Below, one piece after another: positions 1,449 through 63,722 of a DNA stretch of 64,000 nucleotides. Under the pieces are notes generated by a model. That model was not told where the DNA came from, searched no databases, and worked only from the letters and a program-made list of their open reading frames with translations. The position numbers were made by a program, and so were the translations under genes. Within the stretch, counting starts at the first letter, position 1. The number at the start of each line of letters is the position of its first letter. Origin of the DNA: Onthophagus taurus (Eukaryota > Arthropoda > Insecta > Coleoptera > Scarabaeidae); the NCBI RefSeq assembly GCF_036711975.1, contig NC_091973.1, forward strand, positions 1,674,001 to 1,738,000, read 5' to 3'.

Positions 1449-3473
1449 GGGCGGCCGACGTCTTCGAAGTCGGCCGAGATTATATCATATCGTGAACAAT
1501 ACTCAGGAATCGGAGCATACTACTAAAAAACTTTTTGAGCAAAAGTTGTAGATAATTTTATTCTTAACAATATTGCTCTCTTGCACTTTTGCTCTCAGAT
1601 GCGTCAATATCGAGAAAAATACGAAAATATGAAAATTTTGTGAATTTATTGCTTTTTTAAGCTGTTATGGTAACACTATGGAAACGGAGCATACTACTAA
1701 AAAACTTTTTAAGCAAAAGTTGTAGATAATTTTATTCTTAACAATATTGCCCTCTTTCACTTTTGCTCTCGGATGCGTCAATATCTAGAGAAATATGAAA
1801 ATCTGAAAATTTGACGAATTCGTTGCTTTTTTAAGCTGTTATGGTAACACTAGGGAAACGGAGCATACTACTAAAAAACTTTTTAAGCAAAAGTTGTAGA
1901 TAATTTCATTCTTAACAATATTGCACTCTTGCACTTTTGCTCTCAGATGCCTCAATATCGAGAAAAATACAAAAATATAAAAATTTGACGAATTCGTTGC
2001 TTTTTTAAGCTGTTATGGTAACACTAGGGAAACGGAGCATACTACTAAAAAACTTTTTAAGCAAAAGTTGTAGATAATTTTATTCTTAACAATATTGCTC
2101 TCTTGCACTTTTGCTCTCAGATGCGTCAATATCGAGAAAAATACAAAAATATGAAAATTTGACGAATTCGTTGCTTTTTTAAGCTGTTATGGTAACACTA
2201 GGGAAACGGAGCATACTACTAAAAAACTTTTAAAGCAAAAGTTGTAGATAATTTTATTCTTAACAATATTGCTCTCTTGCACTTTTGCTCTCAGATGCGT
2301 CAATATCGAGAAAAATACAAAAATATGAAAATTTGACACATTCGTTGTTTTTTTAAGCTGTTATGGTAACACTAGGGAAACGGAGCATACTACTAAAAAA
2401 CTTTTTAAGCAAAAGTTGTAGATAATTTTATTCTTAACAATATTGCTCTCTTGCACTTTTGCTCTCAGATGCGTCAATATCGAGAAAAATACAAAAATCT
2501 GAATATTTGACGCATTCGTTGCTTTTTTAAGCTGTTATGGTAACACTAGGGAAACGGAGCATACTACTAAAAAACTTTTTTAGCAAAAGTTGTAGATAAT
2601 TTTATTCTTAACAATATTGCTCTCTTGCACTTTTGCTCTCAGATGCGTCAATATCGAGAAAAATACAAAAATATGAAAATTTGACGAATTCGTTGCTTTT
2701 TAAGCTGTTATGGTAACACTAGGGAAACGGAGCATACTACTAAAAAACTTTTTAAGCAAAAGTTGTAGATAATTTTATTCTTAACAATATTGCTCTCTTG
2801 CACTTTTGCTCTCAGATGCGTCAATATCGAGAAAAATACAAAAATATGAAAATTTGACGAATTCTTTGCTTTTTTAAGCTGTTATGGTAACACTAGGGAA
2901 ACGGAGCATACTACTAAAAAACTTTTTAAGCAAAAGTTGTAGATAATTTTATTCTTAACAATATTGCTCTCTTGCACTTTTGCTCTCAGATGCGTCAATA
3001 TCGAGAAAAATACAAAAATACGAAAATTTGACGAATTCGTTGCTTTTTTAAGCTGTTATGGTAACACTAGGGAAACGGAGCATACTACTAAAAAACTTTT
3101 TAAGCAAAAGTTGTAGATAATTTCATTCTTAACAATATTGCACTCTTGCACTTTTGCTCTCAGATGCGTCAATATCGAGAAAAATACAAAAATATGAAAA
3201 TTTGACGCATTCGTTACTTTTTTAAGCTGTTATGGTAACACTAAAGAAACGGAGCATACTACTAAAAAACTTTTTAAGCAAAAGTTGTAGCAAATTTCAT
3301 TCTTAACAATATTACTCTCTTTCACTTTTGGTCTCAGATGCGTTAATATCGAGAAAAGTACAAAAATATAAAAATTTGCTAAATTCGTAGTGTTGCAAGT
3401 GAGTAATGATATCACTAGAGTTTGTGAACCCGATCCTGTTTGAAGTTTATGGAATAAATAATCTCGGCCGACG
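1449..3473. repeat. 174-base satellite element with dyad ends
   Basis: About eleven head-to-tail copies of a 174-base unit. The landmark CGGAGCATACTACTAAAAAA recurs at about 1511, 1685, 1859, 2033, 2207, 2381, 2555, 2728, 2902, 3076 and 3250. Spacing is 174 except for one step of 173. Inner copies are nearly identical, and the first and last have diverged. The left edge is a GC-rich near-palindrome (GCGGCCGACGTCTTCGAAG, from 1451). The right edge is CTCGGCCGAC (3463-3472), a shortened inverse of it. The same two edges bound units in the array at 24-26 kb. I read this as one terminal-inverted-repeat element whose interior was amplified. Confidence 0.92.
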
Positions 3474-7500: not shown

Positions 7501-9377
7501 ATCAAATTGCAAAAAGTAAAGTTATTTATAAACCTTGAAAACAGACAAATCCAAATATGTAAAAATATACAGGGTGTTCCGTTTAAAAAAATAAAGTAGG
7601 TGGCGACTTTCGGTATAACCGGAAGTGCTAGAAATCTGAAAATATTTTAGACGAAGAGAACGTAATTGATAATACTTAAGTCTGAATTCTCAATTTTTTA
7701 TTTTGGCCAGAACCACAGAAACGTCTAATGACCGGTCTCGCTGAGACACCCTGTATAGATTTATATATTTTGTGTTTAGTGACACAGAATAACAACAACT
7801 TGCAGCTTTCAGCATCGCAACAAGCCGATGATATGATATTAATTGGGGCGCATCGACGATAAACGACCGCGACTAAAACATTCAAAAATCATCCTTGCGG
7901 CCGAGGCTTACTATCTGTTGACCAGTTTTAGGTTGATATGGTATTAATGGCCACGCTTTGGCTTAAATATCCAAAGATATAGATCCTCTGTTCTAAGCTC
8001 TGTAACTTATTGGCCAATTTTGGGTTGATATGGTATTAATTCGGCCGTAAGCAACCTCGGGTTAATGTCATAAATCCTCTGTTTTAAATTTTTGCCGAGA
8101 TCGCTTCCGGTCCCACGCCTGGATAAAGAAGGAGAGTAAGCGTAGAACCAACCACCCTAAATTGTAAAAAGTACATCTGTTATGATAGCAGTAAATGGAG
8201 AGAGACTTTACGACCCAGGCTTTCTAATTTATTGACCAATTTTGGGTTGATATGGTATTAATTAGGACGCCTCGGCCGCAAGCAACTTCGACTAATACAT
8301 CTAAAGTCATAAATCCTCCGTTTTAATCTTAGCGGAGGTCGTTTGCGGCTGAGGCTTTGTAATTTATTGATCAATTTTGGGTTGATACCAAAATTGCACC
8401 TCCAAGGTAATGAAAAACTTGTTAGGATTGATAAAGAAGGGTTCTATGTAGATAGAATAGATGTTCTGTGGGATTGAGATACGTGTGCTTGGGATCATTG
8501 TCTTATTGAAAAGTAAATGATCTCAAATTAAAACTAATCTTTATTTTTTTATAAAATAAAATTAATTAAAATCTAATTTTTTTCTCTTAGGGTTCACTTA
8601 TAGCAAATATGATAATGGGTATTATAATTTTAAAACGACGATATTCCTTCTCAAAGTTCCTATCAGTTGGGATGATAACCGTGGGGATCGCAATATGCAC
8701 GATAATATCAAGCGGATCATCCTCAAAAAAAATGTGTACAGATTGCGGTCTGGAACCGATTAATTTAGAGCCATCATCTGATGATAACGAATTTTTCTGG
8801 TGGGTTGCGGGAATTATTCTTCTCACAGCAGCACTTTTGTTATCAGCTCGAATGGGGATTTATCAAGAAACTATTTATAGAGTTCATGGAAAACATCCAA
8901 ACGAAGCACTTTATTACACGGTAAAACTTTCTAATAATTAATTTAATAATATAATCTTTTATTAATTTTTTTTAGCATTTATTATCATTACCTGGATTTA
9001 TTTTATACGCACCAAGTATAATTGAACATACCGAAAAAGTCATTTCAAGCGAGCCATACACACTTCCGTTTGTTGAGATTGCGATTCCGATTTTAGTTTT
9101 GTATTTGATTGGAAATGTTTTAACTCAATATTTATGTATAAGTTCCGTTTATTTATTAACAACCGAATGTACTTCGTTAACGGTGACATTAGTGATAACT
9201 CTCAGAAAATTTATTTCGTTGTTGCTCTCAATCGTTTATTTTAAAAACCCGTTCACGTGGTTGCATTGGTTTGGCACGATTTTGGTGTTTGCCGGAACGT
9301 TAATTTTCGCCGAAATTTTCACTTTCAAAAAGGACGCAACTCAAGAAAAGAAACAAATTGACAAAAAAGTTAAATAG
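4570..9377 (+). CDS. Efr: SLC35B4-type nucleotide-sugar transporter
   Basis: Multi-pass transporter of the NST/SLC35B family that moves UDP-sugars (and GDP-fucose in the fly Efr protein) into the ER or Golgi lumen. Exons are 4570-4652, 4702-4918, 8591-8920 and 8976-9377. All junctions have GT/AG and keep frame, giving 343 residues against 331 in human SLC35B4. Diagnostic stretches are NLITFSQFLFIAIHGF, IPVPLHMIFRAGSLIANM across exons 2-3, ARMGIYQET and TTECTSLTVTLVITLRKF. About ten hydrophobic segments are present. The C-terminus is KKVK, which fits a KKXX ER-retrieval signal. AATAAA lies at 9419-9424. Intron 2 (4919-8590) is expanded by a retroelement fragment, an inverted-dimer transposon and a GC-dyad repeat. 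The gene converges on RUNDC1, with 223 bases between stop codons. Family assignment is firm; the substrate is inferred. Confidence 0.94.
5330..5690 (+). mobile_element. Non-LTR retrotransposon fragment (C-terminal RT region)
   Basis: Inside the SLC35B4 intron the + strand reads LKIKVFNTCILPVINYGA, then VTQRAMLGISLKDNLWRM and RWTDNLLTK. Phrases of the type 'lqVTQRAMeRsMLGiSLrDrir' are typical of the region after the reverse transcriptase in insect RTE/R-clade elements. It is decayed, frame-broken and lacks the catalytic core. The clade is uncertain. Confidence 0.6.
5890..7716. mobile_element. Inverted-dimer (hairpin) DNA transposon
   Basis: The left arm (about 5890-6707) is the reverse complement of the right arm (about 6958-7716). 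For example, the stretch around CTTAAACAACATGATGGAGT near 6210 recurs inverted near 7375, and the CGGAAGT-rich part near 5985 recurs near 7610. A TACAGGGTGT motif lies at the edge of the right arm near 7570. Each arm carries the same short coding piece, read outward-in: + strand near 6618-6707 (YTNQEILNLFFMHKKRDKV) and - strand at 6812-7051 (YTNKEIHNLFFVHEKCDKVL, then FNENYPHLPP). That piece looks like the helix-turn-helix (DUF4817-like) N-terminus of insect mariner-type proteins. No catalytic domain is present. Confidence 0.8.
7880..8420. repeat. Diverged GC-dyad repeat, about 3 partial units
   Basis: The phrase GGTTGATATGGTATTAAT recurs near 7931, 8031 and 8248. Each is followed by a GC-rich block such as GCCTCGGCCGCAAGCAAC (near 8270), and an inverse block GTTTGCGGCTGAGGC follows near 8342. 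The dyad words match those of the 18.4-21.4 kb satellite, but the interior does not. It is degenerate and non-coding. Confidence 0.65.
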
Positions 9378-9600: not shown

Positions 9601-16201
<6,601 letters not shown>

Positions 16202-16639: not shown

Positions 16640-17392
16640 TCATTGCAATCTAGATGTGTTGGTCACCAGGTCACCGAAAGAAGACCCATACCAACAGGTA
16701 TTTACAGGCAATTTCACATCATCATCCCCAACAGAAGAGGTCCGTGATCCGTACATTATTTCAACGAGTAGCGAGACTATGTGAAAGAGAGAACTTGAAG
16801 AAAGAGCAACACTTTCTACGAGGCGTGCTGCAGAAGAATGGATACACTTCGAGGGACATCAACCAGGCCATCAAGCAGCGAAAGCAGAAAGAGGACACGG
16901 TAAGTACAAAACCACTTGGATTTATCTGTCTTCCCTATGTTTCAGGTGTAACGGAACGAATTCAAAATTCAGCAAAATTCGGAACACACTCCCGATAGCC
17001 AAGGACAAACTAACTCCATTAAAAGGAGCGGGAGTCTATCGACTATCGTGTAGTTGTGGGAAGGTTTATGTTGGCCAAACTGGACGCAACGTCGAGTGCC
17101 GCATCAAGGAGCATGAGAGGGATGTAAGGCTGAAGAAGATCCAGCAGTCGGCGGTTGCGGAACATTGCCATGCAGAGGGGCACCGAATAGACTTCGAACA
17201 AACAAAGGTGCTGGCTAGGGACAACAGATACTACCAAAGACTGACAAGAGAAGCCATAGAGATCCACCGACATAAAAATAACGTCAACAGAGAGGTTGGC
17301 TGGGAGCTTAGCAAAACATGGAAGATGGTGGTGAACACGAAGACCCCTTCCCGCCTCACACCGGACGCGACGCAAATTAGTTATTAATTAAC
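16640..17392 (+). mobile_element. Penelope-like retroelement, 5'-truncated, GIY-YIG end
   Basis: Only the 3' part of a Penelope-like element remains. Bases 16654-16998 read KTHTNRYLQAISHHHPQQK, then REN-LKKEQHFLRGVLQKNGY and LPYVSGVTERI, the usual text after the Penelope reverse transcriptase. After a frame shift near 16975 the other frame gives NTLPIAKDKLTPLKGAGVYR, CSCGKVYVGQTGR, RIKEHERD, SAVAEHCHAEGH and LTREAIEIHRHKNNVNREVG. That is a complete GIY-YIG-type endonuclease, with GVY and YVG as its two key motifs. It stops near 17387. The reverse-transcriptase core is absent, so it is a dead copy. Confidence 0.87.
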
Positions 17393-17889
17393 TTGTAATT
17401 AGCGTTAACTGATTATTAATTAGTTTTTCCGACTTATATATAGTTACCGCTTTTTGATCAACATGGCATCCGAAACGTTTACCTCTTAGTTCTCATTTAT
17501 CGTCTTCCAGACTTGATGGTGTATTTGTTCTTGGTCATTTTGTTGTTATCTCTTCTTTTTCGGAGCTTGCAACCGAAATTCTGTAGTATGCGCTACCATA
17601 CTTGGGTTGATACATTATTTATCGGAAGTAATCTGGCCTAAACTAATAACAGAGTTGATAATAATAATAACAGAACCCCAGATGTCACTGAAATGGGCTA
17701 AAAAGGCTGTCATGATAACCACAGAACAAAGAATTTATAGCTTTAAAGTGTAGCGAACCTCGGGTTCTGTTAATTTTATTTCTGAGTTCGAAGCAGTTAG
17801 CAGTTAATTCAGAGTTCTGAGAGTCCGTAACATAGTCCGGTAGTTAGTTCCAGATAGGGAGTTTCAGAGCTGTCAGTTAGTTCGACGGA

Positions 17890-18345
17890 ATCAGTTGTTT
17901 CCAAGGAGTCAGGACGTAGACCGTGCCACAATCTTGAGGCTAAGCCCAGGCTGGGGTGACTCAAAAGGAGTTTTCCGTAGTGGCATTCAATCCACAATCC
18001 GTCGTTATCGGGAGACCAATAACATTGAAGATCATCCCAGAAGTGGAAGACCAAAGACAGTCACGACTCCCTTCATGGTGAAGTGTGCCTGGGGCAAGGT
18101 CCACCAGAATTCAAAGAGGAGTCTCAGAAAAATGGCTAAAGAGTGCAGTGAATCTGTGCACATTCGCCTTCAGAGATGTCATGAACTTTTGAAACACTTC
18201 TCGCCGGCGGAGCTCAAAGACAACCTTTGATTATTGTGGATCAGAGGGTCAAGATCAACTTCCAGAACTACCTTGCTGAGATTTTGATGAAGGAAGTGCT
18301 TCATTACACCCAGTCTCATTTCAACGGACGCCGGTCATCCAAAAT
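17890..18345 (+). mobile_element. Tc1/mariner transposase fragment
   Basis: The + strand reads GIQSTIRRYRETNNIEDHPR, then SGRPKTVTT and KSLRKMAKE-like text ending in LQRCHELLKHF. This is the paired helix-turn-helix region of Tc1-type transposases. After a stop, another frame gives IVDQRVKINFQNYLAEILMK and EVLHYTQSHFNGR, from the catalytic domain just before the usual DSAPAH motif, which is missing. The copy is broken by frame shifts and cut at the satellite border. Confidence 0.8.
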
Positions 18346-21300
18346 CTGGTGGAACTGATATCATAGCTTCCAAATACAAAATCTCATTCAATTAAGGTTG
18401 GTATTCATTATGAATCAGTTCCTGCGCCTCGCCCGCAAGCGACCTCGGCGAAGTGAAGATAAACGATTTTTTATTCAAGTATTGTATGCTTAGTTTAGGT
18501 TCCAAGATTCCAAGATTTCATCTCATTCGCCGAGGTCGCTTGCGGGCGAGGCGATTCAACTGATAGCATAGCTTCCAAATACAAAATCTCATTCAATTAA
18601 GATTTGTACTCATTATGAATCAGTTCTAGCGCCTCGAACGCAAGCGACCTCGGCGAAGTGAAGATAAACGATTACTTATTCAAGTATAGTCTGCTTAATT
18701 TACTCTCCAAGATTCCAAGATTTCATCTTATTCGCCGAGGTTGCTTGCGGGCGAGGCGGTGGATCTGATATCATAGCTCCCAAATACAAAATCTCATTCA
18801 ATTAAGGTTTGTACTCATTATGAATCAGTTCCAGCGCCTCGCCCGCAAGCGACCTCGGCGAAGTGAAGATAAACGATTTCTTATTCAAGTATTGTCTGCT
18901 TAATTTAGTCTCTAAGATTCCAAGATTTCATCTTATTCGCCGAGGTCGCTTGCGGGCGAGGCGATTCAACTGATAGCATAGCTCCCAAATACAAAATCTC
19001 ATTCAATTAAGGTTGGTACTCATTATGAATCAGGTCCAGCGCCTCGCCCGCAAGCGACCTCGGCGAAGTGAAGATAAACGATTTCTTATTCAAGTATTAT
19101 CTGCTTAATTTACTCTCCAAGATTCCAAAATTTCATCTTATTCGCCGAGGTCGCTTGCGGGCGAGGCGATTCAACTGATATCATAGCTTCCAAATACAAA
19201 ATCTCATTGAATTAAGATTTGTATTGGTTATGAATCAGTTCCAGCGCCTCGCCCGCAAGCGACCTCGGCGAAATGAAGATAAACGATTTCTTATTCAAGT
19301 ATTGTCTGCTTAATTTACTCTCCAAGATTCCAAGATTTCATCTTATTCGCCGAGGTCGCTTGCGGGTGAGGCGGTGGATCTGATATCATAGCTGCCAAAT
19401 ACAAAATTTTATTGAATTAAGGTTTGCACTCATTATGAATCAGGTCCAGCGCCTCGCCCGCAAGCGACCTCGGCGAAGTGAAGATAAACGATTTCTTATT
19501 CAAGTATTGTGTGCTTAGTTTACTTTCCAAGATTTCATCTTAATCGCCGAGGTCGCTTGCGGGCGAGGCGGTGGATCTGATATCATAGCTCCCAAATACA
19601 AAATCTCATTCAATTAAGGTTTGTACTCATTATAAATCAGTTCTAGCGCCTCGCCCGCAAGCGACCTCGGCGAAGTGAAGATAAACGATTTCTTATTCAA
19701 GTATAGTCTGCTTAATTTACTCTCCAAGATTTCATCTTATTCGCCGAGGTCGCTTGCGGGCGAGGCGATTCAACTGATAGCATAGCTTCCAAATACAAAA
19801 TCTCATTCACTTAAGGTTGGTATTCATTATAAATCAGTTCCAGCGCCTCGCCCGCAAACGACCTCGGCGAAGTGAAGATAAACGATTTCTTATTCAAGTA
19901 TTGTGTGCTTAGTTTACTTTCCAAGATTTCATCTTAATCGCCGAGGTCGCTTGCGGGCGAGGCGGTGGATCTGATATCATAGCTGCCAAATACAAAATCT
20001 CATTGAATTAAGGTTTGTATTCATTATGAATCAGTTCCAGCGCCTCGCCCGCAAGCGACCTCGGCGAAGTGAAGATAAACGATTTCTTATTCAAGTATAG
20101 TCTGCTTAATTTACTCTCCAAGATTTCATCTTATTCGCCGAGGTCGCTTGCGGGCGAGGCGATTCAACTGATAGCATAGCTTCCAAATACAAAATCTCAT
20201 TCACTTAAGGTTGGTATTCATTATAAATCAGTTCCAGCGCCTCGCCCGCAAACGACCTCGGCGAAGTGAAGATAAACGATTTCTTATTCAAGTATTGTGT
20301 GCTTAGTTTACTTTCCAAGATTTCATCTTAATCGCCGAGGTCGCTTGCGGGCGAGGCGGTGGATCTGATATCATAGCTGCCAAATACAAAATCTCATCGA
20401 ATTAAGGTTTGTACTCATTATGAATCAGGTCCAGCGCCTCGCCCGCAAGCGACCTCGGCGAAGTGAAGATAAACGATTTCTTATTCAAGTATAGTCTGCT
20501 TAATTTACTCTCCAAGATTTCATCTTATTCGCTGAGGTCGCTTGCGGGCGAGGCGATTCAACTGATAGCATAGCTTCCAAATACAAAATCTCATTCACTT
20601 AAGGTTGGTATTCATTATAAATCAGTTCCAGCGCCTCGCCCGCAAGCGACCTCGGCGAAGTGAAGATAAACGATTTCTTATTCAAGTATTGTGTGCTTAG
20701 TTTACTTTCCAAGATTTCATCTTAATCGCCGAGGTCGCTTGCGGGCGAGGCGGTGGATCTGATATCATAGCTCCCAAATACAAAATCTCATTCAATTAAG
20801 ATTTGTATTCATTATGAATCAGTTCCAGCGCCTCGCCCGCAAGCGACCTCGGCGAAGTGAAGATAAACGATTTCTTATTCAAGTATTGTATGCTTAGTTT
20901 AGGTTCCAAGATTCCAAGATTTCATCTCATTCGCCGAGGTCGCTTGCGGGCGAGGCGGTGGATCTGATATCATAGCTCCCAAATACAAAATCTCATTCAA
21001 TTAAGGTTTGTACTCATTATGAATCAGGTCCGGCGCCTCGCCCGCAAGCGACCTCGGCGAAGTGAAGATAGACGATTTCTTATTCAAGTATTGTCTGCTT
21101 AATTTAGTCTCCAAGATTCCAAGATTTCATCTTATTCGCCGAGGTCGCTTGCGGGCGAGGCGGTGGATCTGATATCATAGCTGCCAAATACAAAATCTCA
21201 TTGAATTAAGGTTTGTACTCATTATGAATCAAGTCCAGCGCCTCGCCCGCAAGCGACCTCGGCGAAGTGAAGATAAACGATTTCTTATTCAAGTATTGTC

Positions 21301-21413
21301 GGCTTAATTTAGTCTCTAAGATTCCAAGATTTCATCTTATTCGCCGAGGTCGCTTGCGGGCGAGGCGGTGGATCTGATATCATAGCTCCCAAATACAAAA
21401 TCTCATTGAATGT
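18345..21413. repeat. About 200-base satellite with GC-rich dyad
   Basis: About fifteen copies of a 195-212 base AT-rich unit. Each contains GCCTCGCCCGCAAGCGACC and, about 80 bases later, its inverse GGTCGCTTGCGGGCGAGGC, so every unit can form a hairpin with a stem of roughly 26 base pairs. The forward arm recurs near 18425, 18632, 18836, 19042, 19246, 19450, 19647, 19849, 20041, 20238, 20432, 20630, 20828, 21034 and 21240. Between 19560 and 20760 copies alternate in two types (TCACTTAAGG with ATTATAAATC, against TTGAATTAAGG), making a dimer of about 395 bases. The arms are better conserved than the AT-rich spacer. There is no coding capacity. Confidence 0.93.
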
Positions 21414-22056: not shown

Positions 22057-23133
22057 ATGTCTCAATTCAAAACCAGTAGTTCCGAAAGAACCAGTATTCA
22101 TGATATGCTGAAAGATATTCCGCCCAATGAAACCAAAGGTAAAATTATTTAAATTTATAAAATATGTGTATATGATGCGAAAAGCGGTTTTAGGGCTGTC
22201 GACTTGTAAAAGCTCACCTGCCATCCTAACTCCAACCACACCTGTACAAAATGATGATGCTACCGTTTTAAAAACATCCTCTAGGATAGAAAACCTGAAA
22301 AATTGGTCTATATCCACTTATAAATGCACCAAACAATTAATGTTTGAAAAGTTAGGGAAATCTTCACGAACTGTTGATGCAGGTAACTTATTTATTATTC
22401 AATCAATATTTTATACTCAATTTATACTCTATTTCAATTAGAATTAGAATCTCAAATAGAGCAACTTCGCGATACTCAACGTAAATATTTAAATATATTA
22501 CGTTTGGCAAGAAGTTTAACAAGCCATTTTTACCACGTCGTCCAAACGCAACATGCTCTTGGCGAAGCATTTTCTGAGTTAGCTCAAAAATCCCCAGAAC
22601 TCCAAGAAGAGTTCCTTTACAACTCAGAGACGCAACGTAATTTGACAAAAAATGGGGAGACTTTGCTTGGGGCGCTTAACTTTTTCACCTCATCCGTGAA
22701 TACGTTATGCAATAAAACGATCGAGGATACACTGCAAAGTGTAAGACAGTACGAAGCCGCGCGGATAGAGTACGACGCATATCGAAGCGATCTCGAATGT
22801 CTTTCCAATAAACCGGACGCTCCCATGGGGTTGGAGGATGCACAACATGAATACGAGGTTCATAGACAACATTTTATGAAGCTACGAGCGGAAGTTGCTA
22901 TTAAAATGAAGTTTTTAGATGAGAATAGGGTAAGATTACATTAAATTGGTTAATTAATTTAATACATTTAATTATTTCAGATTAAAGTGATGCATAAACA
23001 ATTGTTATTGTTTCATAATGCGGTGTCTGCCTATTTTTCTGGTAATCAAACTGCCTTAGAAGCAACACTAAAGCAGTTCAACATAAAAATTAAAACACCA
23101 AACTCCGCGTTTCCGTCATGGTTGGAACAGTAG
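22057..23133 (+). CDS. Arfip: Arfaptin (BAR-domain protein)
   Basis: BAR-domain protein that senses or shapes curved Golgi membrane and binds Arl1, Arf or Rac GTPases. Exons are 22057-22138, 22194-22382, 22442-22929 and 22981-23133, giving 303 residues. Human arfaptin-2 is about 341, and the difference lies in the variable N-terminus. The BAR core fills exons 3 and 4, residues about 91-303: [71 protein letters not shown] and YDAYRSDLE. It ends in [24 protein letters not shown]. The exon 2 acceptor is ambiguous: an AG at 22183-22184 is also in phase, but it would leave a 46-base intron. I prefer TTTTAG at 22088-22093 plus 100, that is ending at 22193, which leaves a 55-base intron. The family is secure. 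Confidence 0.93.
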
Positions 23134-24089: not shown

Positions 24090-26205
24090 CTCATCATTTC
24101 GAGTAAAATACGAATATATGAAAATTTGGTGAATCTATAGTTTTACAAGTTGTTAATTAACCAAATCTTTCTTGTTTGAAATTTATGGATGGAATAAACT
24201 CGGCCGACTTCGAAGACGTCGGCCGCCCTAAGTATTGTATACGATATTTGGAGCGGCCGACGTCTTCGAAGTCGGCCGAGATTACTTCTAATATCATGAA
24301 GAATACTTAGGAATCGGAGCATGTTATAAAAAAGTATTTAGAACAAAAGTTGTAGCAAATTTCATTCTTAAAAATAATGCTCTCTTGCACTTTTACTCTC
24401 AGATGCGTCAATATCGAGAAAATTTGCTCAATTCGTAATTTTACAAGTTGTTAATTAATCAAGTGTACCCTGTTTGAAATTTATGGAAGAAATAAACTCG
24501 GCCGACTTCGAAGACGTCGGCCGCCCTAAGTATTGTTTATGATATTTGGAGCGGCCGACGTCTTCGAAGTCGGCCGAGATTACTTCTAATATCATGAACT
24601 ATACTGAGAAATCGGAGCATGTTATAAAAAAGCGTTTAGAACAAAAGTTGTAGCAAATTTCATTCTTAACAATATTGCTCTCTTTCACTTTTGCTCTCAG
24701 ATGCGTCAATATCGAGAAAATTTGCTGAATTCGTAGTTTTACAAGTTGTTAATTAATTAAGTCTACCCTGCTTGAAGTTTATGGAACAAAATAATCTCGG
24801 CCGACTTCGAAGACGTCGGCCGCCCTAAGTATTGTTTATGATATTTGGAGCTGCCGACGTCTTCGAAGTCGGTCGAGATTACTTCTAATATCATGAACTA
24901 TACTGAGGAATCGGAGCATGTTATAAAAAAGATTTTAGAACAAAAGTTGTAGCAAATTTCATTCTTAACAATATTGTTCTCTTTCACTTTTGCTCTCAGA
25001 TACGTCAATATCGAGAAAATTTACTGAATTCGTAGTTTTACATGTTGTTAATTAATCAAGTTTACTCTGCTTGAAGTTTATGGAAGAAATAAACTCGCCC
25101 TAACTATTGTATATGATATTTGGAGCGGCCGACGTCTTCGAAGTCGGCCGAGATTACTTCTAATATCATGAAGAATACTTAGGAATCGGAGCATGTTATA
25201 AAAAAGTTTTTAGAACAAAAGTTGTAGCAAATTTCATTCTTAACAATATTGCTCTCTTTCACTTTTGCTCTCAGATGCGTCAATATCGAGAAAACTTGCT
25301 GAATTCGTAGTTTTACAAGTTGTTAATTAATCAAGTTTACCCTGCTTGAAGTTTATGGAAGAAATAAACTCGGCCGACTTCGAAGACGTCGGCCGCCCTA
25401 AGTATTGTTTATGATATTTGGAGCGGCCGACGTCTTCGAAGTCGGCCGAAATTACTTCTAATATCATGAAGAATACCTAGGAATCGGAGCATGTTATAAA
25501 AAAGTTTTTAGAACAAAAGTTGTAGCAAATTTCATTCTTAACAATATTGTTCTCTTTCACTTTTGCTCTCAGATGCGTCAATATCGAGAAAATTTACTGA
25601 ACTCGTAGTTTTACAAGTTGTTAATTAATCAAGTTTACTCTGCTTGAAGTTTATGGAAGAAATAAACTCGCCCTAACTATTGTATATGATATTTGGAGCG
25701 GCCGACGTCTTCGAAGTCGGCCGAGATTACTTCTAATATCATGAAGAATACTTAGGAATCGCAGCATGTTATAAAAAAGTTTTTAGAACAAAAGTTGTAG
25801 CAAATTTCATTCTTAACAATATTGCTCTCTTTCACTTTTGCTCTCAGATGCGTCAATATCGAGAAAACTTGCTGAATTCGTAGTTTTACAAGTTGTTAAT
25901 TAATCAAGTTTACCCTGCTTGAAATTTATGGAAGGAATAAACTCGGTCGACTTCGAAGACGTCGGCAGCCCTAACTATTGTATATGATATTTGGAGCGGC
26001 CGACGTCTTCGAAGTCGGCCGAGATTACTTCTAATATCATGAAGAATACTTAGGAATCGGAGCATGTTATAAAAAAGTTTTTAGAACAAAAGTTGTAGCA
26101 AATTTCATTCTTAATAATATTGCTCTCTTTCACTTTTGCTCTCAGATGCGTCAATATCGAGAGAAATACGAATATATGAAAATTTGCTGAATTTCGAAGA
26201 CGAGA
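24090..26205. repeat. About 298/276-base satellite with GC-rich dyad
   Basis: Seven units that share their core with the 174-base satellite at 1.4-3.5 kb (GGAGCATGTTATAAAAAA, AAAAGTTGTAGCAAATTTCA, CTCAGATGCGTCAATATCGA). The arm GCGGCCGACGTCTTCGAAG recurs near 24252, 24551, 24850 (one base changed), 25125, 25422, 25698 and 25997. Full units also carry the inverse arm CTTCGAAGACGTCGGCCGC about 40 bases upstream, so adjacent units meet at a hairpin. Units of about 276 bases have lost that inverse arm. No coding capacity. Confidence 0.92.
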
Positions 26206-34110: not shown

Positions 34111-37100
34111 TTATATTCGCCGCAAATACCCACCTCTCATCCGTTTCAACGATAACACGCCCAATATTCCCAACAAAGCCGAACCACCACAAACATACGA
34201 GACTATATCACGGTAATATTGAGAAGACGATGCGTCCGTATGACTTAAAAATAATTAAATAAAAAATTGGTGATGAATACTTAATACATTAATAAATACT
34301 TACAAGTCTTGAATTATTACCACAGCTATTCCATTGGCTAATTTATCGCAAAAACTCATCACGCCATAAACGAAAGCCACACTTCCGCTTTTATCACCGA
34401 TTAAATCTACGGTTATTCCTAAACTTGTTACTAAAATTATTGAATTTGCCGCACCTAAATAATCTTAAAATTAAAATTTATTTTTTAAAATTTTATTTTT
34501 ACTTACCAAATAAAATAGCAACAACGTAGATATCATAATTAATAAAATCTTCTCCGTATCGAAATCTAACCATAGCACATCCGACGATTCCGATAATTCC
34601 ACCGGAAATATAAGAGATCTACACAAAAAAAAAAATTACATGTTTTGAAATAACATAGATAAATTCATACTCTTCGTCCTATTGTGCGATTCATAAACTC
34701 GATGATAAAAGTTGTTAGAAAGCTTCCGATAAACATTATTAACGGTATCAAAGCTAAAGCACTCGCTGCCATGTTTAAAGATTCGTGGAGATACAGCGGG
34801 ATAAAAATTTGGCTTAAATTCACGAATAAGCGGGTTGACATATATACCACGGCAACCTAAAAAAATAAAAGAAAATATCTCTTATAACTTGAATTAATAA
34901 TTGGTGGCAAATTCTCAATAATTTTTAACCAATTTTAAAAGTTAAACACGAAAGATTGTGAATAAAAACATTTTTATCTTAAGAACTAAACGTGATATTT
35001 CAAAACGGATGGTTTCATTGAAAAGTAGATACTTTAATTAATAAATGGTGGCAAATTCGCAATAATTTTCCAAGGCATTGATATTTAACGAGTATTAGAA
35101 GTTATGGACGTTAAGTAAAGTTTTGATTTTAATAAAAACTTTGTATCTCAAGAACTAAAAGAGATATTTTAAAACGGATGCTTTCATTGAAAAGTAGATG
35201 CTTTAATTAATAAATGGTGGTAAATTCGCAATAATTTTCCAAAGCATTAATATTTAACGAGAATTAGAAATTATGGACGTTAAGTTTTGATTTTGATAAA
35301 AACCTTGTATCTCAAGAACTAACAGTGATATTTCAAAACGGATACGTTCATTGAAAAGTAGATACTTTAGTTAATAAATAGTGATAGTTTCACAAGAATT
35401 TTCCAAGAACTCAATTTTTAACGAATTTTAAAAGTTAAACACAAAATATTGAGAATTAAAAAATTTTATCTCAAGAACTAAATGTGATATTTCAAAACGG
35501 ATACTTTCATTGAAAAGTAGATACTTTAATTAATAAATGGTGGCAAATTCGCAATAATTTTCCGAGGCATTGATATTTAACGAGTATTAGAAGTTAGGGA
35601 CGTTAAGTAAAGTTTTAATTTTAATAAAAAAAATTGTATCTCAAGAACTAAAAGCGATATTTCAAAACGGATGCTTTCACTGAAAAGTAGATGCTTTAAT
35701 TAATAAATGGTGGCAAATTCACAATAATTTTCCAAGGCGTTAATATTTAACGAGTATTAGAAGTTATGGACGTTAAGTTTTGATTTTGATACTTGTATCT
35801 CAAGAACTAAGAGTGATATTTCAAAACGGATACGTTCATTGAAAAGTAGATACTTTAGTTAATAAATAGTGATAGTTTCACAAGAATTTTCCAAGAACTC
35901 AATTTTTAACGAATTTTAAAAGTTAAACACAAAATATTGAGAATTAAAAAATTTTATCTCAAGAACTAAAAGTGATATTTCAAAACGGATGGTTTCATTG
36001 AAAAGTAGATACTTTAATTAATAAATGATGACAAATTCGCAATAATTTGCCAATGCATTAATATTTAACTAGTATTAGAAGTTATGGACGTTAAGTAAAG
36101 TTTTGATTTTAATAAAACCTTTATATCTCAAGAACTAAAAGCGATATTTTAAAACGGATGCTTTCACTGAAAAGTAGATGCTTTAATTAATAAATGGTGG
36201 TAAATTCGCAATAATTTTCCAAGACGTTAATATTTAACGAGAATTAGAAATTATGGACGTTAAGTTTTGATTTTGATAAAAACCTTGTATCTCAAGAACT
36301 AAGAGTGATATTTCAAAACGGATACGTTCATTGAAAAGTAGATACTTTAGTTAATAAATAGTGATAGTTTCACAAGAATTTTCCAAGAACTCAATTTTTA
36401 ACGAATTTTAAAAGTTAAACACAAAATATTGTGAATTAAAAAATTTTATCTCAAGAACTAAATGTGATATTTCAAAACGGATGGTTTCATTGAAAAGTAG
36501 ATACTTTAATTAATAAATGGTGGCAAATTCGCAATAATTTTCCAAGGCATTGATATTTAACGAGTATTAGAAGTTAGGGACGTTAAGTCAAGTGTTAATT
36601 TTAATTTAAAAAAATGTATCTCAAGAACTAAAAGCGATATTTCAAAACGGATGCTTTCATTGAAAAGTAGATGCTTTAATTAATAAATGGTGGTAAATTC
36701 GCAATAATTTTCCAAAGCATTAATATTTAACGAGAATTAGAAATTATGGACGTTAAGTTTTGATTTTGATAAAAACCTTGTATCTCAATAACTAACAGTG
36801 ATATTTCAAAACGGATACGTTCATTGAAAAGTAGACACTTTAGTTAATAAATAGTGATAGTTTCACAAGAATTTTCCAAGAACTCAATTTTTAACGAATT
36901 TTAAAAGTTAAACACAAAATATTGAGAATTAAAAAATGTTTATCTCAAGAACTAAATGTGATATTTTAAAACGGATGCTTTCACTGAAAAGTAGATGCTT
37001 TAATTAATAAATGGTGGTAAATTCACAATAATTTTCCAAGGCGTTAATATTTAACGAGTATCAGAAGTTATGGACGTTAAGTAAAGTTTTGATTTTAATA

Positions 37101-40100
37101 AAAACTTTGTATCTCAAGAACTAAAAGCGATATTTTAAAACGGATGCTTTCACTGAAAAGTAGATGCTTTAATTAATAAATGGTGGTAAATTCGCAATAA
37201 TTTTCCAAGACGTTAATATTTAACGAGTATTAAAAGTTATGGGCGTTAAGTTTTGATTTTGATAAAAACCTTGTATCTCAAGAACTAAGAGTGATATTTC
37301 AAAACGGATACATTCATTGAAAAGTAGATACTTTAGTTAATAAATAGTGATAGTTTCACAAGAATTTTCCAAGAACTCAATTTTTAACGAATTTTAAAAG
37401 TTAAACACAAAATATTGAGAATTAAAAAATGTGTATCTCAAGAACTAAATGTGATATTTCAAAACGGACGGTTTCATTGAAAAGTAGATGCTTTAATTAA
37501 TAAATGGTGGCAAATTTGCAATAATTTTCCAAGGCGTTAATATTTAACGAGTATTAGAAGTTAGGGACGTTAAGTCAAGTGTTAATTTTAATTAAAAAAA
37601 TTGTATCTTAAGAACTAAAAGCGATATTTCAAAACGGATGCTTTCACTGAAAAGTAGATGCTTTAATTAATAAATGGTGGTAAATTCGCAATAATTTTCC
37701 AAGGCGTTAATATTTAACGAGTATTAGAAGTTATGGACGTTAAGTTTTGATTTTGATAAAAACCTTGTATCTCAAGAACTAAGAGTGATATTTCAAAACG
37801 GATACGTTCATTGAAAAGTAGATACTTTAGTTAATAAATAGTGATAGTTTCACAAGAATTTTCCAAGAACTCAATTTTTAACGAATTTTAAAAGTTAAAC
37901 ACAAAATATTGAGAATTAAAAAATGTTTATCTCAAGAACTAAATGTGATATTTCAAAACGGATGGTTTCATTGAAAAGTAGATACTTTAATTAATAAATG
38001 GTGGCAAATTCGCAATAATTTTCCAAGGCATTGATATTTAACGAGTATTAGAAGTTATGGACGTTAAGTAAAGTTTTGATTTTAATAAAACCTTTGTATC
38101 TTAAGAACTAAAAGCGATATTTTAAAACGGATGCTTTCACTGAAAAGTAGATGCTTTAATTAATAAATGGTGGTAAATTCGCAATAATTGTCCAAGGCGT
38201 TAATATTTAACGAGTATTAGAAGTTATGGACGTTAAGTTTTGATTTTGATAAAAACCTTGTATCTCAAGAACTAAGAGTGATATTTCAAAACGGATACGT
38301 TAATTGAAAAGTAGACACTTTAGTTAATAAATAGTGATAGTTTCATAAGAATTTTCCAAGAACTCAATTTTTAACGAATTTTAAAAGTTAAACACAAAAT
38401 ATTGAGAATTAAAAAATTTTATCTCAAGAACTAAATGTGATATTTCAAAACGGATGGTTTCATTGAAAAGTAGATACTTTAATTAATAAATGGTGGCAAA
38501 TTTGCAATAATTTTCCAAGGCGTTAATATTTAACGAGTATTAGAAGTTAGGGACGTTAAGTAAAGTTTTAATTTTAATAAAAAAAATTGTATCTCAAGAA
38601 CTAAAAGCGATATTTCAAAACGGATTATTTCATTGAAAAGTAGATGCTTTAATTAATAAATGGTGGTAAATTCGCAATAATTTTCCAAGGCGTTAATATT
38701 TAACGAGTATTAGAAGTTATGGACGCTAAGTTTTGATTTTGATAAAAACCTTGTATCTCAAGAACTAAGAGTGATATTTCAAAACGGATACTTTCATTGA
38801 AAAGTAGATACTTTAGTTAATAAATAGTGATAGTTTCACAAGAATTTTCCAAGAACTCAATTTTTAACGAATTTTAAAAGTTAAACACAAAATATTGAGA
38901 ATTAAAAAATTTTATCTCAAGAACTAAATGTGATATTTCAAAACGGATGGTTTCATTGAAAAGTAGATACTTTAATTAACAAATGGTGGCAAATTCGCAA
39001 TAATTTTCCAAGGCGTTAATATTTAACGAGTATTAGAAGTTAGGGACGTTAAGTAAAGTTTTAATTTTAATAAAAAAAATTGTATCTCAAGAACTAAAAG
39101 CGATATTTCAAAACGGATTATTTCATTGAAAAGTAGATGCTTTAATTAATAAATGGTGGTAAATTCACAATAATTTTCCAAAGCATTAATATTTAACGAG
39201 AATTAGAAGTTATGGACGTTAAGTTTTGATTTTGATAAAAACCTTGTATCTCAAGAACTAAGAGTGATATTTCAAAACGGATACGTTCATTGAAAAGTAG
39301 ATACTTTAGTTAATAAATAGTGATAGTTTCACAAGAATTTTCCAAGAACTCAATTTTTAACGAATTTTAAAAGTTAAACACAAAATATTGAGAATTAAAA
39401 AATTTTATCTCAAGAACTAAAAGTGATATTTCAAAACGGATACTTTCATTGAAAAGTAGATACTTTAATTCATAAATGGTGGTAATTTCACAACAATTTT
39501 CCAAGAAATCAATTTTTGACGAATTTTAAAATTTAAGTTCCGAAAATTGTGAATTAAAAAATGTTTATCTCAAGAACCAAATGTGATATTTCAAAACGGA
39601 TGGTTTCATTGAAAAGTAGACACTTTAATTAATAAATGATGACAAATTCGCAATAATTTTCCAATGCATTAATATTTAACGAGTATTAGAAGTTATGGAC
39701 GTTAAGTAAAGTTTTGATTTTAATAAAAACTTTGTATCTCAAGAACTAAAAGCGATATTTTAAAACGGATGTTTTTACTGAAAAGTAGATGCTTTAATTA
39801 ATTAATGGTGGTAAATTCACAATAATTTTCCAAGCCATTAATTTTTAACGAATTTTTAAAGTTATGCACAAAAAATTATGAATTAATAAATATTTTGATT
39901 GTGTTAAAAAAATTGTATCTCAAGAACTAAACGTGATATTTCAAAACGGATACTTTCATTGAAAAGTGGATACTTCAATTAATAAATGGTGAAGGTTACA
40001 TAACAATTTTCCAAGAAATCAATTTTTGGCGAATTTTAAAAGTCAATTTTACCATAACATATATAGATCTCAATTTATTTATACCTGATATAATTTCATG

Positions 40101-47287: not shown

Positions 47288-50200
47288 CTACGAATCGGAC
47301 TGTTCGGAGAAATTGTAAAGATATGTCGAACCGGAAACGAGGCTATTGTTGTGTGTGGTCGTCGAATTGCCGTCGGACGGCAACGGAACCGGTAGCGGCT
47401 TTGCAGGTTTTCGCGGCCGGTAACTCCCTCTCGAACCCTGATGCGCGGGACCGGAAGGCTTTAAACGCGGTCTTCCGGGACCTCGACGCACCGCCGGCGT
47501 CGTCCCACTATTTCCAGCAGACGTGCTCGGCACCGACGATGACGACGAGTGACGCGTTTCCGGCGTTGATGACGTCGGAACAGCAGCTTCAAACATATAC
47601 GAAGAATTGTATTTCGTTTGTTCTTGAGATGAATCTAAATTACATAAAGTTTTCAAATCATATTAATTCACATTAAAAAATCATGAACCTTTACCTAATG
47701 TAGAGGTAGAAGGTGTTGATTGTGAGGTAGAATTAAATCGTCCCAAAGCTGAAACGCGTCTTGATCCGCGAGGTCGGCCTCGTTTTGATGCCCCTCGACC
47801 TGGATTCCGAGGTTTTGTGGGTCCAGGATGTGAATATACTTGTGGTTCTGTTAAATAAATTAATATATTAATAATAATATAAAAAATTTTATCAAAGGAA
47901 AAGCAAAATTTGAAGATTTCAAGATTATGTTGGTGTTGTATTCAACGGTAGAGGTCGTTAACCTGTTTTTGGTGGATTATCTCGGCCGCAAGCGACCTTG
48001 GCTTTATCGGAAAATGTCGTAGATTCTTATCAGTTAAGCCGCTGCAGTATTTATTAACCAGTTTTGGGTGAATATGGTTTTAATTAGAGATAATTTGAAG
48101 CATATAGAGTAGAATTAAATTGAAAAATTTTTTACTTGAGGTTTGTGTGGTCCATTCGCAGTCGACGTCCATAAGATCATTTTCAACGATTTCATCGGCG
48201 GCTATTTCCATGCTTAAATCCATTAATGGGCTATTTGGAGTGCTATCCATTAAGGATCCTTCGCAATACCCGCTTTCTTGACTTTCTTTTTTTAGTTTTT
48301 CGGCGGTGGTGGTGATATTTGCTTTAGTTGAAGCCATGTATTTTCGTTTTCTGTCCATTTCTCGCATATCTTCTAAATGTCTTCTTTCTTCCGCTCTTTG
48401 TCGATCTAAAAAAAATATTAATATTAAAACAAAAAAATTTTTTTTGGGATTATTTACATTTTTGTTCGATTTCTTCATCGTCTAATAACAAAGAAACAAC
48501 TTCTTTCGGTTTTAAAGTATCCGGTTTGAAATTGCCGCCGCTAATAACCAATTTTTGAATTTCGCTTTTTTCTCTAGCTCGTTCTAAAATTCTTTCCTCA
48601 ATCGATCCTTTACAAATTAATCGATAAACGGTGACTTGTTTAGTTTGGCCTAATCGGTGAGCTCTGTCCATGGCTTGCTGATCGACTGTGGGGTTCCAAT
48701 CGCTATCGTAAAAAATCACAGTGTCCGCGGCGGTTAGATTGATTCCTAGACCTCCAGCTCGGGTTGAAAGTAAAAATACAAAAATATCAGTCCTAGCTTG
48801 AAAATCAGCGACCATATCACGTCTTTCAGAAATTTTTGATGACCCATCTAACCTCATATATTTATGGTGTCGATGCCACATATATTCTTCTAATAAATCG
48901 ATCATTTTAGTCATTTGGGAGTAGATTAAAACGCGATGCCCTTCTTCTTTTAATCGTTTTAAAAGCCCATCAAGCACGGATAATTTTCCAGAATCGGTGA
49001 CTAAAGTTTCTTTATCCGGAATTGTAATGTGCGACCACCCATGCATTGGCGATAAATTATCTAAAGCAGTACGAGGGATTGGGTGAAACTGGGACACCGA
49101 GGATTTTCGAGACAAATTTTGATTTGTAGCGTTACAAAAATGATAATTTAACGAGTTTAAGGACCAATCGTCAACGTGTCGCGCCCAATGATGGGCGACG
49201 CGACGCGATGGGCAAAATAATTGGGGCGCGTTTACAGTCACTTTAGGAATTACACTAAAAAGGAACGATGGGATCTCCGTTAACGTACAATCGAAAATTT
49301 GCGGCTTGCGTTCTTCGTAGATTAAATCGTTTAATTCCGCCTTTTTCTATTTTTGAAACAAAAACAATAATTAAATAGTTAAGAAATAAAATAAAGCGAG
49401 TTTTACTTACATTATCATCGATGTTTTTGTATCGAATATTTCGGTGCTCAATCGTTTCCGGCATAGAAAGTAACAAATGTTTAACGAACGTGTAAAAAAC
49501 TTGTTTCCCCGTGCAATTTCTTGTAAAAACTAGATCTCGTAGTGTTGGACTCATATCAATCGAAGCCGGGCTCATTTTAAACTCACTCGAAACGTTTATA
49601 TCTAAATATTTAGGTCTCGTTCCCGAGTAAAAATACCTATAAGCGTTGTTATATTGTCGCCGGGTTATTTCAAAAAAACTTTGCCACCTTAAAAAAATAA
49701 AATAAACCATAAATTTGTTTAAAAACTTCTTTTTAGTTTACCTTTTTAAGATATCACTATTAAAAATGCTAGAAGCTTCACCAATACTTATTTTAATGGA
49801 ATGTAAAAATATAAAAATCGATTGTTTATCGCTTTTTAAACAATCATTAATATTGACGGGGTTAAAACAAAACAATTTAATTTTTTGAAACGTTTCCTGT
49901 CGAACGTTGAAATCAAAAATTTCATACGGAACGTTATACGTTAATGAGTTAAGAAAAATCGGGGATTTCGCATCCCGCCTTTCAAATAATTCGGGATGAT
50001 TACAAACTTTCCGAAATTGCATCACCAAATTCATCAAGTTTGACGTGAAATTTTTATCAACGTTGTGACTATCACCACCTCCACCGCCAACCGTATAATG
50101 CAGCAAATCTTCAATACGAATTTTTTGTTTTAAAGCCATGTAAAGTAATTTTTGTCGCGTTGTCAACGGACAATAAAGCATTACTTCAATTTTATCCGAA

Positions 50201-53200
50201 AGTTCATTTTCGACATCTTTTTTTATTCGACGCAACATAAACGGCTTTAAAATCATGTGCAATCTAGATAAATGTTCTAAAACAATTTAAGTTATTTAAA
50301 TCAAAATAAATTTTTTTTCTTACTTTCATCAATTCCCGTTTTATTTTCAGCGTGGCTTTCAATATCTTTTGAAAACCACTCGTTAAATTCTTCGTGTGAG
50401 TCGAAAAGGGTGGGCATTATGAAGTGGAGTAAAGCCCAAAGTTCCGCCATGCTGTTTTGGATTGGGGTTCCACTTAATAACAGTCTATTTCGACAATTAA
50501 AACCTAAAAGTGTTTTCCAACGCATGCTAAAAAAAGTTTAAATAACGATCTGAATCTGGAATGTTAAAAATGTAAAGGATCTCACCTATTAGTGCTTTTA
50601 ATAGCTTGCGCTTCATCTAAAACCATGTACTGCCATTTAATCCTATTAAAGTATTTAACATCCGAGATAACGATTTGATAACTCGTTATTACAATGTGAA
50701 AACCACCGTCTTTAGTGTGCATCCCGTCGTGGTTCCAAAATTGCCTCAAAATCTTACGATCCGCCGGGTTTCCCCAATATGGAACCACTTTGAATGCAGG
50801 TACAAACTTTGCAAATTCTTGTTGCCAATTATGTAGTGTTGATGCTGGGCATATTACCAAAAATGGACCCCATAAATCTAATGTAAATAAAAAAGTATAT
50901 TCAAAGCTTAAAAAATATAGTTGTGGTGCTTAAAAATAATTAGAAGATTTTTAACTTATATTTTGAATGATTATTATGAAACACATCTAAAGGAGGATCG
51001 CGCAGAATTCGACGTGCGGGACACATATTAAGAAATAAACCCAAAATTAAGAAATAAGCCTAGAATAGACCTAGAAACATCTTCATTGAGTCGGGCAAAC
51101 ATAGATCAGCTCAATATTACACGAATTTTTGGCAACACTCCTCAACAGGTACAAAAACATCCTGATTCAAAGGATCAGACAAACTATGACTGTTCGAGCC
51201 TTACCAGAAGAGGGATGGAGGAATAGAAAAGAATAGTGATTACAATGCGAGATGCGATTATACAGGGTGTCACATAAAAAACGCCCCAAGCTGTAACTGT
51301 TATTTACATTCCGATTTCCATGAGCCAGGTATCAAATGAAATGGTTTGATGAATACTATGTTTTATGCTACAAATAAATTTTTTAAAATTGCTCGGTATA
51401 TTATTTTTTGCGCTATTAGAGAGAGATTTTTTTCTGAATCCATTGATGTATAATATATCCATTTTAAATTTTAGCAGAAAAAAACACCTGTATACAGAGT
51501 ATCTCTTGTAATTGTTTTTTTAGATTCCACTATTCGTACAGTTTTGAAATTTTAGTAGCATGGGTTGTTCATTCGGAACTTTCGATCTACAATATTTTCA
51601 AGATGGCTGCCATATCCGGTCTACCGGAAGTAGCCCATAACATTAAATATAATCATTAAATATGAAGATAACCTCAAAAATATCATTTTTATAGCAGTGT
51701 ATAGCGCAATCTGGAAAAAATTTCGAAAATTTTAATTGAAAATTTGATTTTAAATGAATGCAAATATTATTCAAAACACTTTTCGTGTTTCTCTGTATAG
51801 TACTATTCACAGGGAAATTAAAATAATTTGTTATTAATAATCAAGCAAGAATTTTTTTAAATGTTTCAAACGAACTTTGTTCTTAATTTGATTCTAAACA
51901 ACTTTCATTTAAACATTTTTGTGATACAACCCTTAATTATAAAGACAACCTCAAAAATATAATTTTTATACCAGTATATAGCGCAGTCTGGAGGAAATTT
52001 CGAAAATTTGAATTGAAAATTTGATTTTAAATTAGTTTTTAAGCAAATATTATTCGAAACACTTTTCGTGTTTTTTTGTGTAGTACTATTCACAGGGAAA
52101 TTAAAATAATTTGTTATTAATAATCAAGCAAAAATTTTAAAAAACGTTTCAAACGAACTTTGTTCCTAATTTGATTCTAAACAACTTTCATTTAAACATT
52201 TTTGTGATACAACCCTTAATTATAAAGACAACCTCAAAAATATTATTTTTATAGCAGTGTATAGCGCAATGTGGAAAAAATTTCGAAAATTTGAATTGAA
52301 AATTTGATTTTAAATTAGTTTTTAAGCAAATATTATTCGAAACACTTTTCGTGTTTTAACCATAATGTCTATGTAGTACTGTTCACAGGGAAATTAAAAA
52401 AATTTATTATTAATAATCAAGCAAAAATTTTAAAAAATATTTCAAACGAACTTTGTTCCTAATTTGATTCTAAACAACTTTCATTTAAACAGTTTTGTGA
52501 TACAACCATTAATTTTGAAGATAACCTCAAAAATTACATTTTTATAGCAGTGTATAGCGCAATCTGGAGAAAATTTCGAAAATTTGAATTTGCAATTTGA
52601 TTTTAAATTAGTTTTTAAGCAAATATTATTCGAAACACTTTTCGTGTTTTAACCATAATGTCTATGTAGTACTGTTCACAGGGAAATTAAAAAAATTTAT
52701 TATTAATAATCAAGCAAAAATTTTAAAAAATGTTTCAAACGAACTTTGTTCCTAATTTGATTCTAAACAACTTTCATTTAAACAGTTTTGTGATACAACC
52801 ATTAATTTTGAAGATAACCTCAAAAATTACATTTTTATAGCAGTGTATAGCGCAATCTGGAGAAAATTTCGAAAATTTGAATTGAAAATTTGATTTTAAA
52901 TTAGTTTTTAAGCAAATATTATTCGAAACACTTTTCGTGTTTTAACCATAATGTCTATGTAGTACTGTTCACAGGGAAATTAAAATAATTTGTTATTAAT
53001 AATCAAGCAAAAATTTTAAAAAATGTTTCAAACGAACTTTGTTCCTAATTTGATTCTAAACAACTTTCATTTAAACATTTTTGTGATACAACCCTTAATT
53101 ATAAAGACAACCTCAAAAATATAATTTTTATAGCAGTGTATAGCGCAATCTGGAGAAAATTTCGAAAATTTGAATTGAAAATTTGATTTTAAATTAGTTT

Positions 53201-63358: not shown

Positions 63359-63722
63359 TTTCTCCGTAAACCTGACTTGAAAACTAATTAAATTAAGTAA
63401 TGGAAAGACAATTTCAATAAAGTTTTCCACAATAACAATGTTTTTAATCCAAGTTGTTGTCTAAGAATCCCATGTAGTTTAAACAATTTAAATAAAGCAT
63501 TTATAAAAACCACGTCCTTAGTTTTTGTGCATTGCAATAATTTATACAACACTTAATTGAAAAGCAGGAAAAAAGCTGTGTGTTTTAATACATTGTTAAA
63601 ATAATGACAAACACTCTGTTTTTGTAGTTTAATTAATTTTGTATAAAATATAAATCACACTTTATTTAGGTTTTATTTCAACGGGACTCAATTCTTGAAC
63701 TTGTAGTGTCAAAATCAACGTT
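63359..63722. other. Upstream of the terminal gene
   Basis: AT-rich unique sequence, presumably the promoter and 5' UTR of the gene starting at 63723. Nothing specific is visible. Confidence 0.4.

Follow-up and report, generated by a model that had tools for sequence, protein, structure and literature searches.

Why does every unit of a satellite array carry the same GC-rich inverted motif, with arms better conserved than the DNA between them? The question is raised by an array on contig C8 of Onthophagus taurus (genome 290.8 Mb, 33 contigs), within C8:1674001-1738000, the 64,000-nucleotide stretch that was analysed and is called the window here.

A satellite array with inverted arms in every unit

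The first-pass annotation had described a satellite of ~200-base units, each with a GC-rich dyad, in about fifteen copies. Tandem Repeats Finder (period 205, 15.2 copies over the array) and an arm scan confirm this description and give 15 units (Table 1). The units are 205 or 197 bp long, the difference being an 8-bp indel in the loop. Each holds one 28-bp arm (CGCCTCGCCCGCAAGCGACCTCGGCGAA) and its inverse, with 73 or 65 bases between them, so that arm starts lie 101 or 93 bases apart inside a unit; from unit to unit the distance is 104. The scan found 30 arms (15 plus and 15 minus) between 18425 and 21367, of which 20 are exact (12 plus, 8 minus) and the remaining 10 have 1 or 2 mismatches.

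Table 1. Features of the window, in window positions
Feature	Position	Strand	Basis
Satellite array, inverted arms in every unit	18348..21411	.	Tandem Repeats Finder, arm scan, unit alignment
First plus arm, 28 bp, exact	18425..18452	+	arm scan
Later plus arms, starts (first seven)	18630, 18835, 19040, 19245, 19450, 19647, 19844	+	arm scan
Later plus arms, starts (last seven)	20041, 20238, 20435, 20632, 20829, 21034, 21239	+	arm scan
First minus arm, 28 bp, exact	18526..18553	-	arm scan
Later minus arms, starts (first seven)	18731, 18936, 19141, 19346, 19543, 19740, 19937	-	arm scan
Later minus arms, starts (last seven)	20134, 20331, 20528, 20725, 20930, 21135, 21340	-	arm scan
Old isolated inverted pair, same core, 5 + 6 mismatches of 28	8268..8356	.	
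Solo diverged core, 4 mismatches of 24, GCCGAGG... on the minus strand	47979..48002	-	
Arfaptin-domain open frame, 3' of the array	22387..22944	+	Pfam, E 1.6e-54
Second array, different GC-rich inverted motif (motif 2), 12 copies at <=4 mismatches	24120..26167	.	
174-bp array	1506..3378		
Motif 2 copy flanking the 174-bp array	1452..1478	-	
TCGGCCG piece outside the 174-bp array	3464		
Open frame without Pfam match	16785..17387		
Further long tandem arrays (five)	10142..13893, 34920..40043, 51656..54016, 57314..59639, 61640..63360		

The claim that the arms are better conserved than the spacer was likewise upheld. Across the 15 units, the plus arm (nucleotide diversity 0.018) and the minus arm (0.029) vary less than the loop (0.060) and the inter-unit spacer (0.102). 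Among 77 equally spaced window pairs in the unit alignment, none has a lower diversity than the arm pair. Taken by itself, the window array is only suggestive of constraint on the arms and no proof of it, because the contrast in variable columns (7/56 in the arms versus 38/149 in the spacer) is borderline (Fisher p = 0.058).

The array sits within gene-bearing DNA, since the Arfaptin-domain frame lies downstream. Five of the ten open frames scanned have a Pfam match, all animal-like (RUN, Arfaptin, ubiquilin, MFS and SNF2). Another open frame, without a Pfam match, resembles the GIY-YIG end of a Penelope-like element. No Rfam match over 17500-26500 reaches the gathering score, and an RNA gene was rejected on this basis.

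Motif 1 across the genome and the conservation of its core

The arm core is a 24-bp sequence, GCCGAGGTCGCTTGCGG[G/C]CGAGGC (motif 1), that recurs across the genome. A 19-mer of the arm matches 6390 places genome-wide (3036 + 3354) at up to 2 mismatches, whereas its reversed control matches 0 places at the same tolerance; the abundance of the 19-mer is therefore far beyond chance. The variant with C at position 18 occurs as an exact 24-mer at 1677 places genome-wide (control, 0). In 20 stretches of 9.9 kb on C1 (198 kb), each picked by an exact 19-mer, 140 copies of the 24-mer are present at up to 6 mismatches; over the same 198 kb the reversed motif never fell below 8 mismatches and three shuffles never fell below 7. 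Within the window, motif 1 is absent at up to 6 mismatches from the five further long tandem arrays. A viral source of the core is disfavoured by 0 exact matches in IMG/VR, from which near records may be left out. Another dispersed repeat, marked by the word CGGCTAAACCCG and often running on into TCTAGTTCTAGG-like sequence, was seen in 14 copies from 7 of 22 sources (L009, L011, L013, L015, L021, L026 and the window at 14362).

Three arrangements of the core are seen. It forms inverted arrays and also direct arrays, the latter with units of 86-90 bp that each hold a single core, and it occurs in scattered copies. The direct arrays are L002, L019 and L026, plus two opposed blocks each in L013 and L017. 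Neighbouring cores (up to 7 mismatches, up to 250 bases apart, from 35 sources that are not a random sample) form 93 direct pairs (15 sources), 79 tail-to-tail pairs (27) and 78 head-to-head pairs (25). The orientation of the core is free.

In all seven direct arrays, which come from five loci picked by core, core diversity is lower than spacer diversity, from 0.141 versus 0.178 in L013 to 0.033 versus 0.285 in L017. The consensus cores of these arrays are 0-1 site apart, at position 18 (G/C) only. For the spacers, 17 of the 21 comparisons between arrays give an identity no more than 0.05 away from the shuffled mean, and the four exceptions (L002-L017b, L002-L019, L013a-L013b and L013a-L026) stand 0.06 to 0.12 above it. 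Ranked among circular 24-column windows, the core takes places 1, 5, 5, 10, 15, 16 and 23 of 86-94; it is the single most conserved window in just one of the seven arrays, and in five of them the most conserved window begins 5-18 bases upstream of the core.

A second set was chosen by spacer, because most loci had been picked by core. A 75-base core-free spacer piece used as query gave 40 scored places (71 candidates), of which 16 are the window array and the other 24 fall in 13 stretches. When the best match per stretch is taken, cores at up to 4 mismatches stand on both flanks in 9 of the 13 stretches and on one flank in 3. Mismatches amount to 75/624 (0.120) in the core versus 184/1002 (0.184) in the spacer, the spacer being the selected part; without the stretch that lacks both cores, the values are 49/576 (0.085) and 170/929 (0.183). 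Decay is visible at L055, where both cores have degenerated, and at L047, where one core is truncated. The core rate is below the spacer rate at only 10 of the 13 stretches, a result that nonetheless departs from equal divergence of arms and spacer across the genome, the outcome that would speak against constraint. The constraint proposed for the arms is thus supported well beyond the window array, in the direct arrays as well as in the spacer-chosen stretches.

Motif 2, satellite content and contig C8

The second array of the window has a 298-bp unit and carries motif 2, CTCGGCCGACTTCGAAGACGTCGGCCG. The 174-bp array matches this unit over 111 aligned bases at 91% identity, and motif 2 at up to 8 mismatches is absent from within it; outside it lie the motif 2 copy at its edge and the TCGGCCG piece. 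The 174-bp array would thus appear to be an array expanded without its box. Because it is kin to the motif 2 unit and holds no motif 2, an array can expand without the motif. At up to 2 mismatches, motif 2 occurs at 2097 places genome-wide. Among the matches listed (100 exact places, plus strand), 61 are on C8 and 39 on C1-C7, and those 61 all lie between 0.15 and 1.85 Mb, the point on C8 at which the listed matches stop. The flanks of motif 2 at 9 loci differ (ungapped identity 0.39 and 0.34), a weak comparison in which the best copy per locus was used.

The distribution of motif 1 is also uneven. On C1 (44.24 Mb), 37 of 46 core clusters, with exact 19-mers and C-variants combined, lie within 10 Mb of an end, versus 45% expected. 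The exact 28-mer, which was taken from the window and so favours the window's own motif 1 subfamily, is distributed among the 100 places listed, of 210, as follows: C1 1, C2 10, C3 12, C5 19, C6 2, C7 4 and C8 52. Cluster densities per Mb among the matches listed are 0.02 (C1), 0.06 (C2), 0.61 (C5) and 1.17 (C8, first 5.97 Mb), the last computed from 26 of the 52 listed C8 places, which suffice for the clusters there. Motif 1 is not special to C8, because C5 is also dense. The C-variant has 73 of its 1677 places on C1, which makes up 15.2% of the genome.

Contig C8 looks rich in satellites. Tandem arrays occupy about 35% of the window versus 4.8% of the C1 stretches, and fixed 1-kb points fall inside arrays at 4/9 on C8 versus 1/9 elsewhere, in a small sample; neither motif 1 nor motif 2 occurs at those 18 points. 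Two 1-kb points on C8 (L061 and L062, at 10.5 and 12.5 Mb) consist entirely of a 152-bp tandem array, a candidate pericentromeric satellite of C8. As to telomere repeats, a genome-wide search found TCAGG x5 at 0 exact places and TTAGG x6 at one internal spot only.

The possibility that C8 is the X was approached through gene content. An ancient X, homologous to the Drosophila fourth chromosome, is described as kept in many insects (PMC10715201), and the beetle X is described as conserved (PMC11753715). With a list of Drosophila fourth-chromosome genes taken from PMC11917476, 3 of the 5 genes tested were placed on C8. Both plexins are on C8; of the two MUN-domain genes, both of which would be expected there if C8 is the X, only the weaker match is on C8 and the stronger is on C10, the pair being Cadps and unc-13 in either order; RpS3A is on C16 in an uninterrupted frame and is possibly a retrocopy. 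The tally of 3/5 is only suggestive that C8 may be the X of this insect, and an X-related role of the motifs is no more than possible.

Explanations for the constant core and likeness to known systems

The evidence leans, by a modest measure, toward the arm core as a candidate sequence-specific protein-binding site in rapidly evolving satellites. The direct arrays keep the core, its orientation is free and compensatory changes are absent; the arm is therefore read as a protein site, of which the dyad is a single arrangement. Each arm would be one copy of a site of ~24 bp that is recognised by a nuclear protein binding DNA in a sequence-specific way, putatively multi-zinc-finger or dimeric; the satellites would be fast-evolving carriers of such sites, and the dyad of the window one of several arrangements, probably with no role of its own. 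Clusters of sites may mark chromosome domains, for example in a chromosome-identity, pairing or chromatin function. We infer both the protein reading of the site and the marking of domains. In populations of ordinary size, selection could hardly act on each of thousands of single sites, unless many of them work together. Also weighing against this reading are the modest ranks of the core among the windows of most direct arrays, the spacer-chosen stretches at which the core rate is not below the spacer rate, and the expansion of the 174-bp array without motif 2. Of the three mechanisms that the first-pass annotation had offered, the protein site fits best; cruciform formation is not needed, as the direct arrays keep the core, and transposon ends are not supported, given the solo and direct cores and the free orientation at variable spacing.

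The strongest competitor, itself unlikely, holds that the amplification is selfish: a transposase-like or recombination protein acts at the core, and the arrays grow and are rearranged through exchange between motifs. Intact cores would then persist since only intact cores recombine, a model that has been proposed for the box satellites of Meloidogyne. Near-identical cores separated by different spacers fit this model, as do the opposed direct blocks that adjoin in L013 and L017, and there is a precedent in the monomer junctions described within the box (PMC3694981). Against it, tandem neighbours in L017 have a shared but diverged spacer ancestry and kept the core, which means that the core was preserved without spacer replacement, and the array related to the motif 2 unit expanded without motif 2. 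Sites that are cut tend to be lost when the break is repaired (hotspot drive), and this too counts against selfish amplification.

Far less probable is a transposon origin, in which a MITE-like element was caught in tandem and the arms are its terminal inverted repeats. Inverted pairs are common, core copies are dispersed through the genome, and some cores that look solo turn out to be paired with a decayed inverted copy (in L022, 7 mismatches, 63 bases away). However, in the direct arrays, with one core per 86-90 bp, every inverted match to the 24-bp core has at least 8 mismatches; the best have 8-9, about as many as the core compared with itself, or shuffled cores by chance, would give. The solo core of L016 is without an inverted partner at up to 10 mismatches within 1.5 kb, and the start-to-start spacing of inverted neighbours varies from about 45 to 125 bases, with a few longer. 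No target duplication was seen by eye at the old isolated pair of the window, the sole pair inspected.

Neutral conversion, GC-biased or of short tracts, might hold the core uniform, since the core is GC-rich amid AT-rich DNA and tandem copies convert, yet this is slightly less probable still. The relevant profile was built from 116 C1 copies (148 at up to 7 mismatches minus the 32 with an exact 19-mer). At both edges its information falls off sharply, apart from a weaker shoulder of ~8 bases 3' of the core; conversion tracts of only 24 bp with edges this steep are implausible. In these copies change is on average rarest at A/T positions (0.053), with 0.120 at non-CpG G/C and 0.149 at CpG; the changes are mostly G>A and C>T, and only 24 of 324 are A/T>G/C. 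The pattern at A/T sites fits purifying selection against AT-ward mutation and would not be expected from GC-biased conversion, although an AT-ward mutation bias by itself would likewise spare A/T sites.

Ascertainment combined with recent expansion, by which the conservation would be apparent only, is highly improbable: most loci were indeed picked by exact core, but the spacer-chosen set retains the core at most stretches, and so do unpicked neighbours inside arrays. The least credible explanation, that cruciform or hairpin formation by the dyad is the conserved property, was rejected, for although the single-stranded arms of a unit fold strongly (z = -11.2), the core is kept also where the dyad is absent, in the direct arrays, and compensatory pairs of changes between the arms, proposed earlier as a check, number 0 in the 15 aligned units.

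The preferred reading of the core as a protein-binding site can be set beside known systems. The pairing-centre motifs of C. elegans are read by the zinc-finger proteins ZIM/HIM-8 and, like the motifs here, are short, chromosome-biased and repeated in otherwise unrelated short arrays. Motif 1, however, is on many contigs and does not follow a pattern of one motif per chromosome.

The closest known system is that of the box-sharing satellites of Meloidogyne. There, a 17-bp CENP-B box-like box is described as common to divergent satellites (PMC3694981, PMC9673304), and tandem repeats with a 19-bp box are reported to be associated with the centromeric histone (Despot-Slade 2021, cited in PMC9673304). 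As described in these sources, the two systems share a short conserved box in divergent satellites, a proposed protein-binding site, short scattered arrays and main unit lengths of about 80 or 180 bp. The defining feature of box-sharing satellites, a box kept as other sequence diverges, is also found here in the consensus cores and the spacer-chosen stretches. In contrast to Meloidogyne, the box here is 24 bp long and GC-rich, exists in thousands of near-perfect copies, occurs in both orientations inside one unit and is found on C1 mostly within 10 Mb of the contig ends. A likeness to the CENP-B box was rejected: scored against the consensus, motif 1 reaches at best 6/9 essential bases, as do 44% of shuffles and so not above them, and motif 2 reaches 7/9, as do 9.6%.

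Other satellites are more distant. In Drosophila, the 1.688 arrays are reported as X-enriched, with conserved motifs (PMC7642928), and the X and dot chromosomes as having specific satellites (PMC4079201). The accounts of 1.688 (PMC7642928, PMC4079201, PMC11228850) agree with the present case in euchromatic arrays, conserved motifs and, possibly, enrichment on one chromosome; its subfamilies are described as aligning over most of their length, whereas here little aligns beyond the core. Satellites derived from foldback or MITE elements (Tetris of D. virilis, PMC4079207) also have inverted arms in tandem units, but the arms here are also seen in direct arrays and singly, as scattered cores. The euchromatic repeats of Tribolium are reported to include inverted dimers (PMC5844308) and the satellites of T. 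madens to form macro-dyads (PMC13081366); neither account is known to describe the present core. Four letter strings of the core have no match in the running text, figures and supplements apart, of 5.39 million papers, and among the titles and abstract openings listed from the satellite literature there was no description of motif 1 or motif 2. Relative to known box satellites, what is new is a box that is longer, GC-rich, orientation-free, present in thousands of copies and possibly chromosome-biased.

A bolder and improbable proposal is that host DNA-binding proteins read both boxes as marks of chromosome identity. Motif 2, together with a motif 1 subfamily, would label the X, satellites would turn over as the box persists, and the system would be an independent counterpart of the Drosophila X recognition elements or of the nematode pairing-centre motifs.

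Whether satellite DNA has sequence-specific function is a long-standing question. A 24-bp core that stays nearly constant in thousands of copies as its surroundings diverge, in gene-bearing regions, makes this question directly testable, and the coexistence of direct and inverted arrays provides a built-in control against the hairpin reading. Should motif 2 turn out to be specific to the X, a candidate X recognition element would be known beyond Drosophila.
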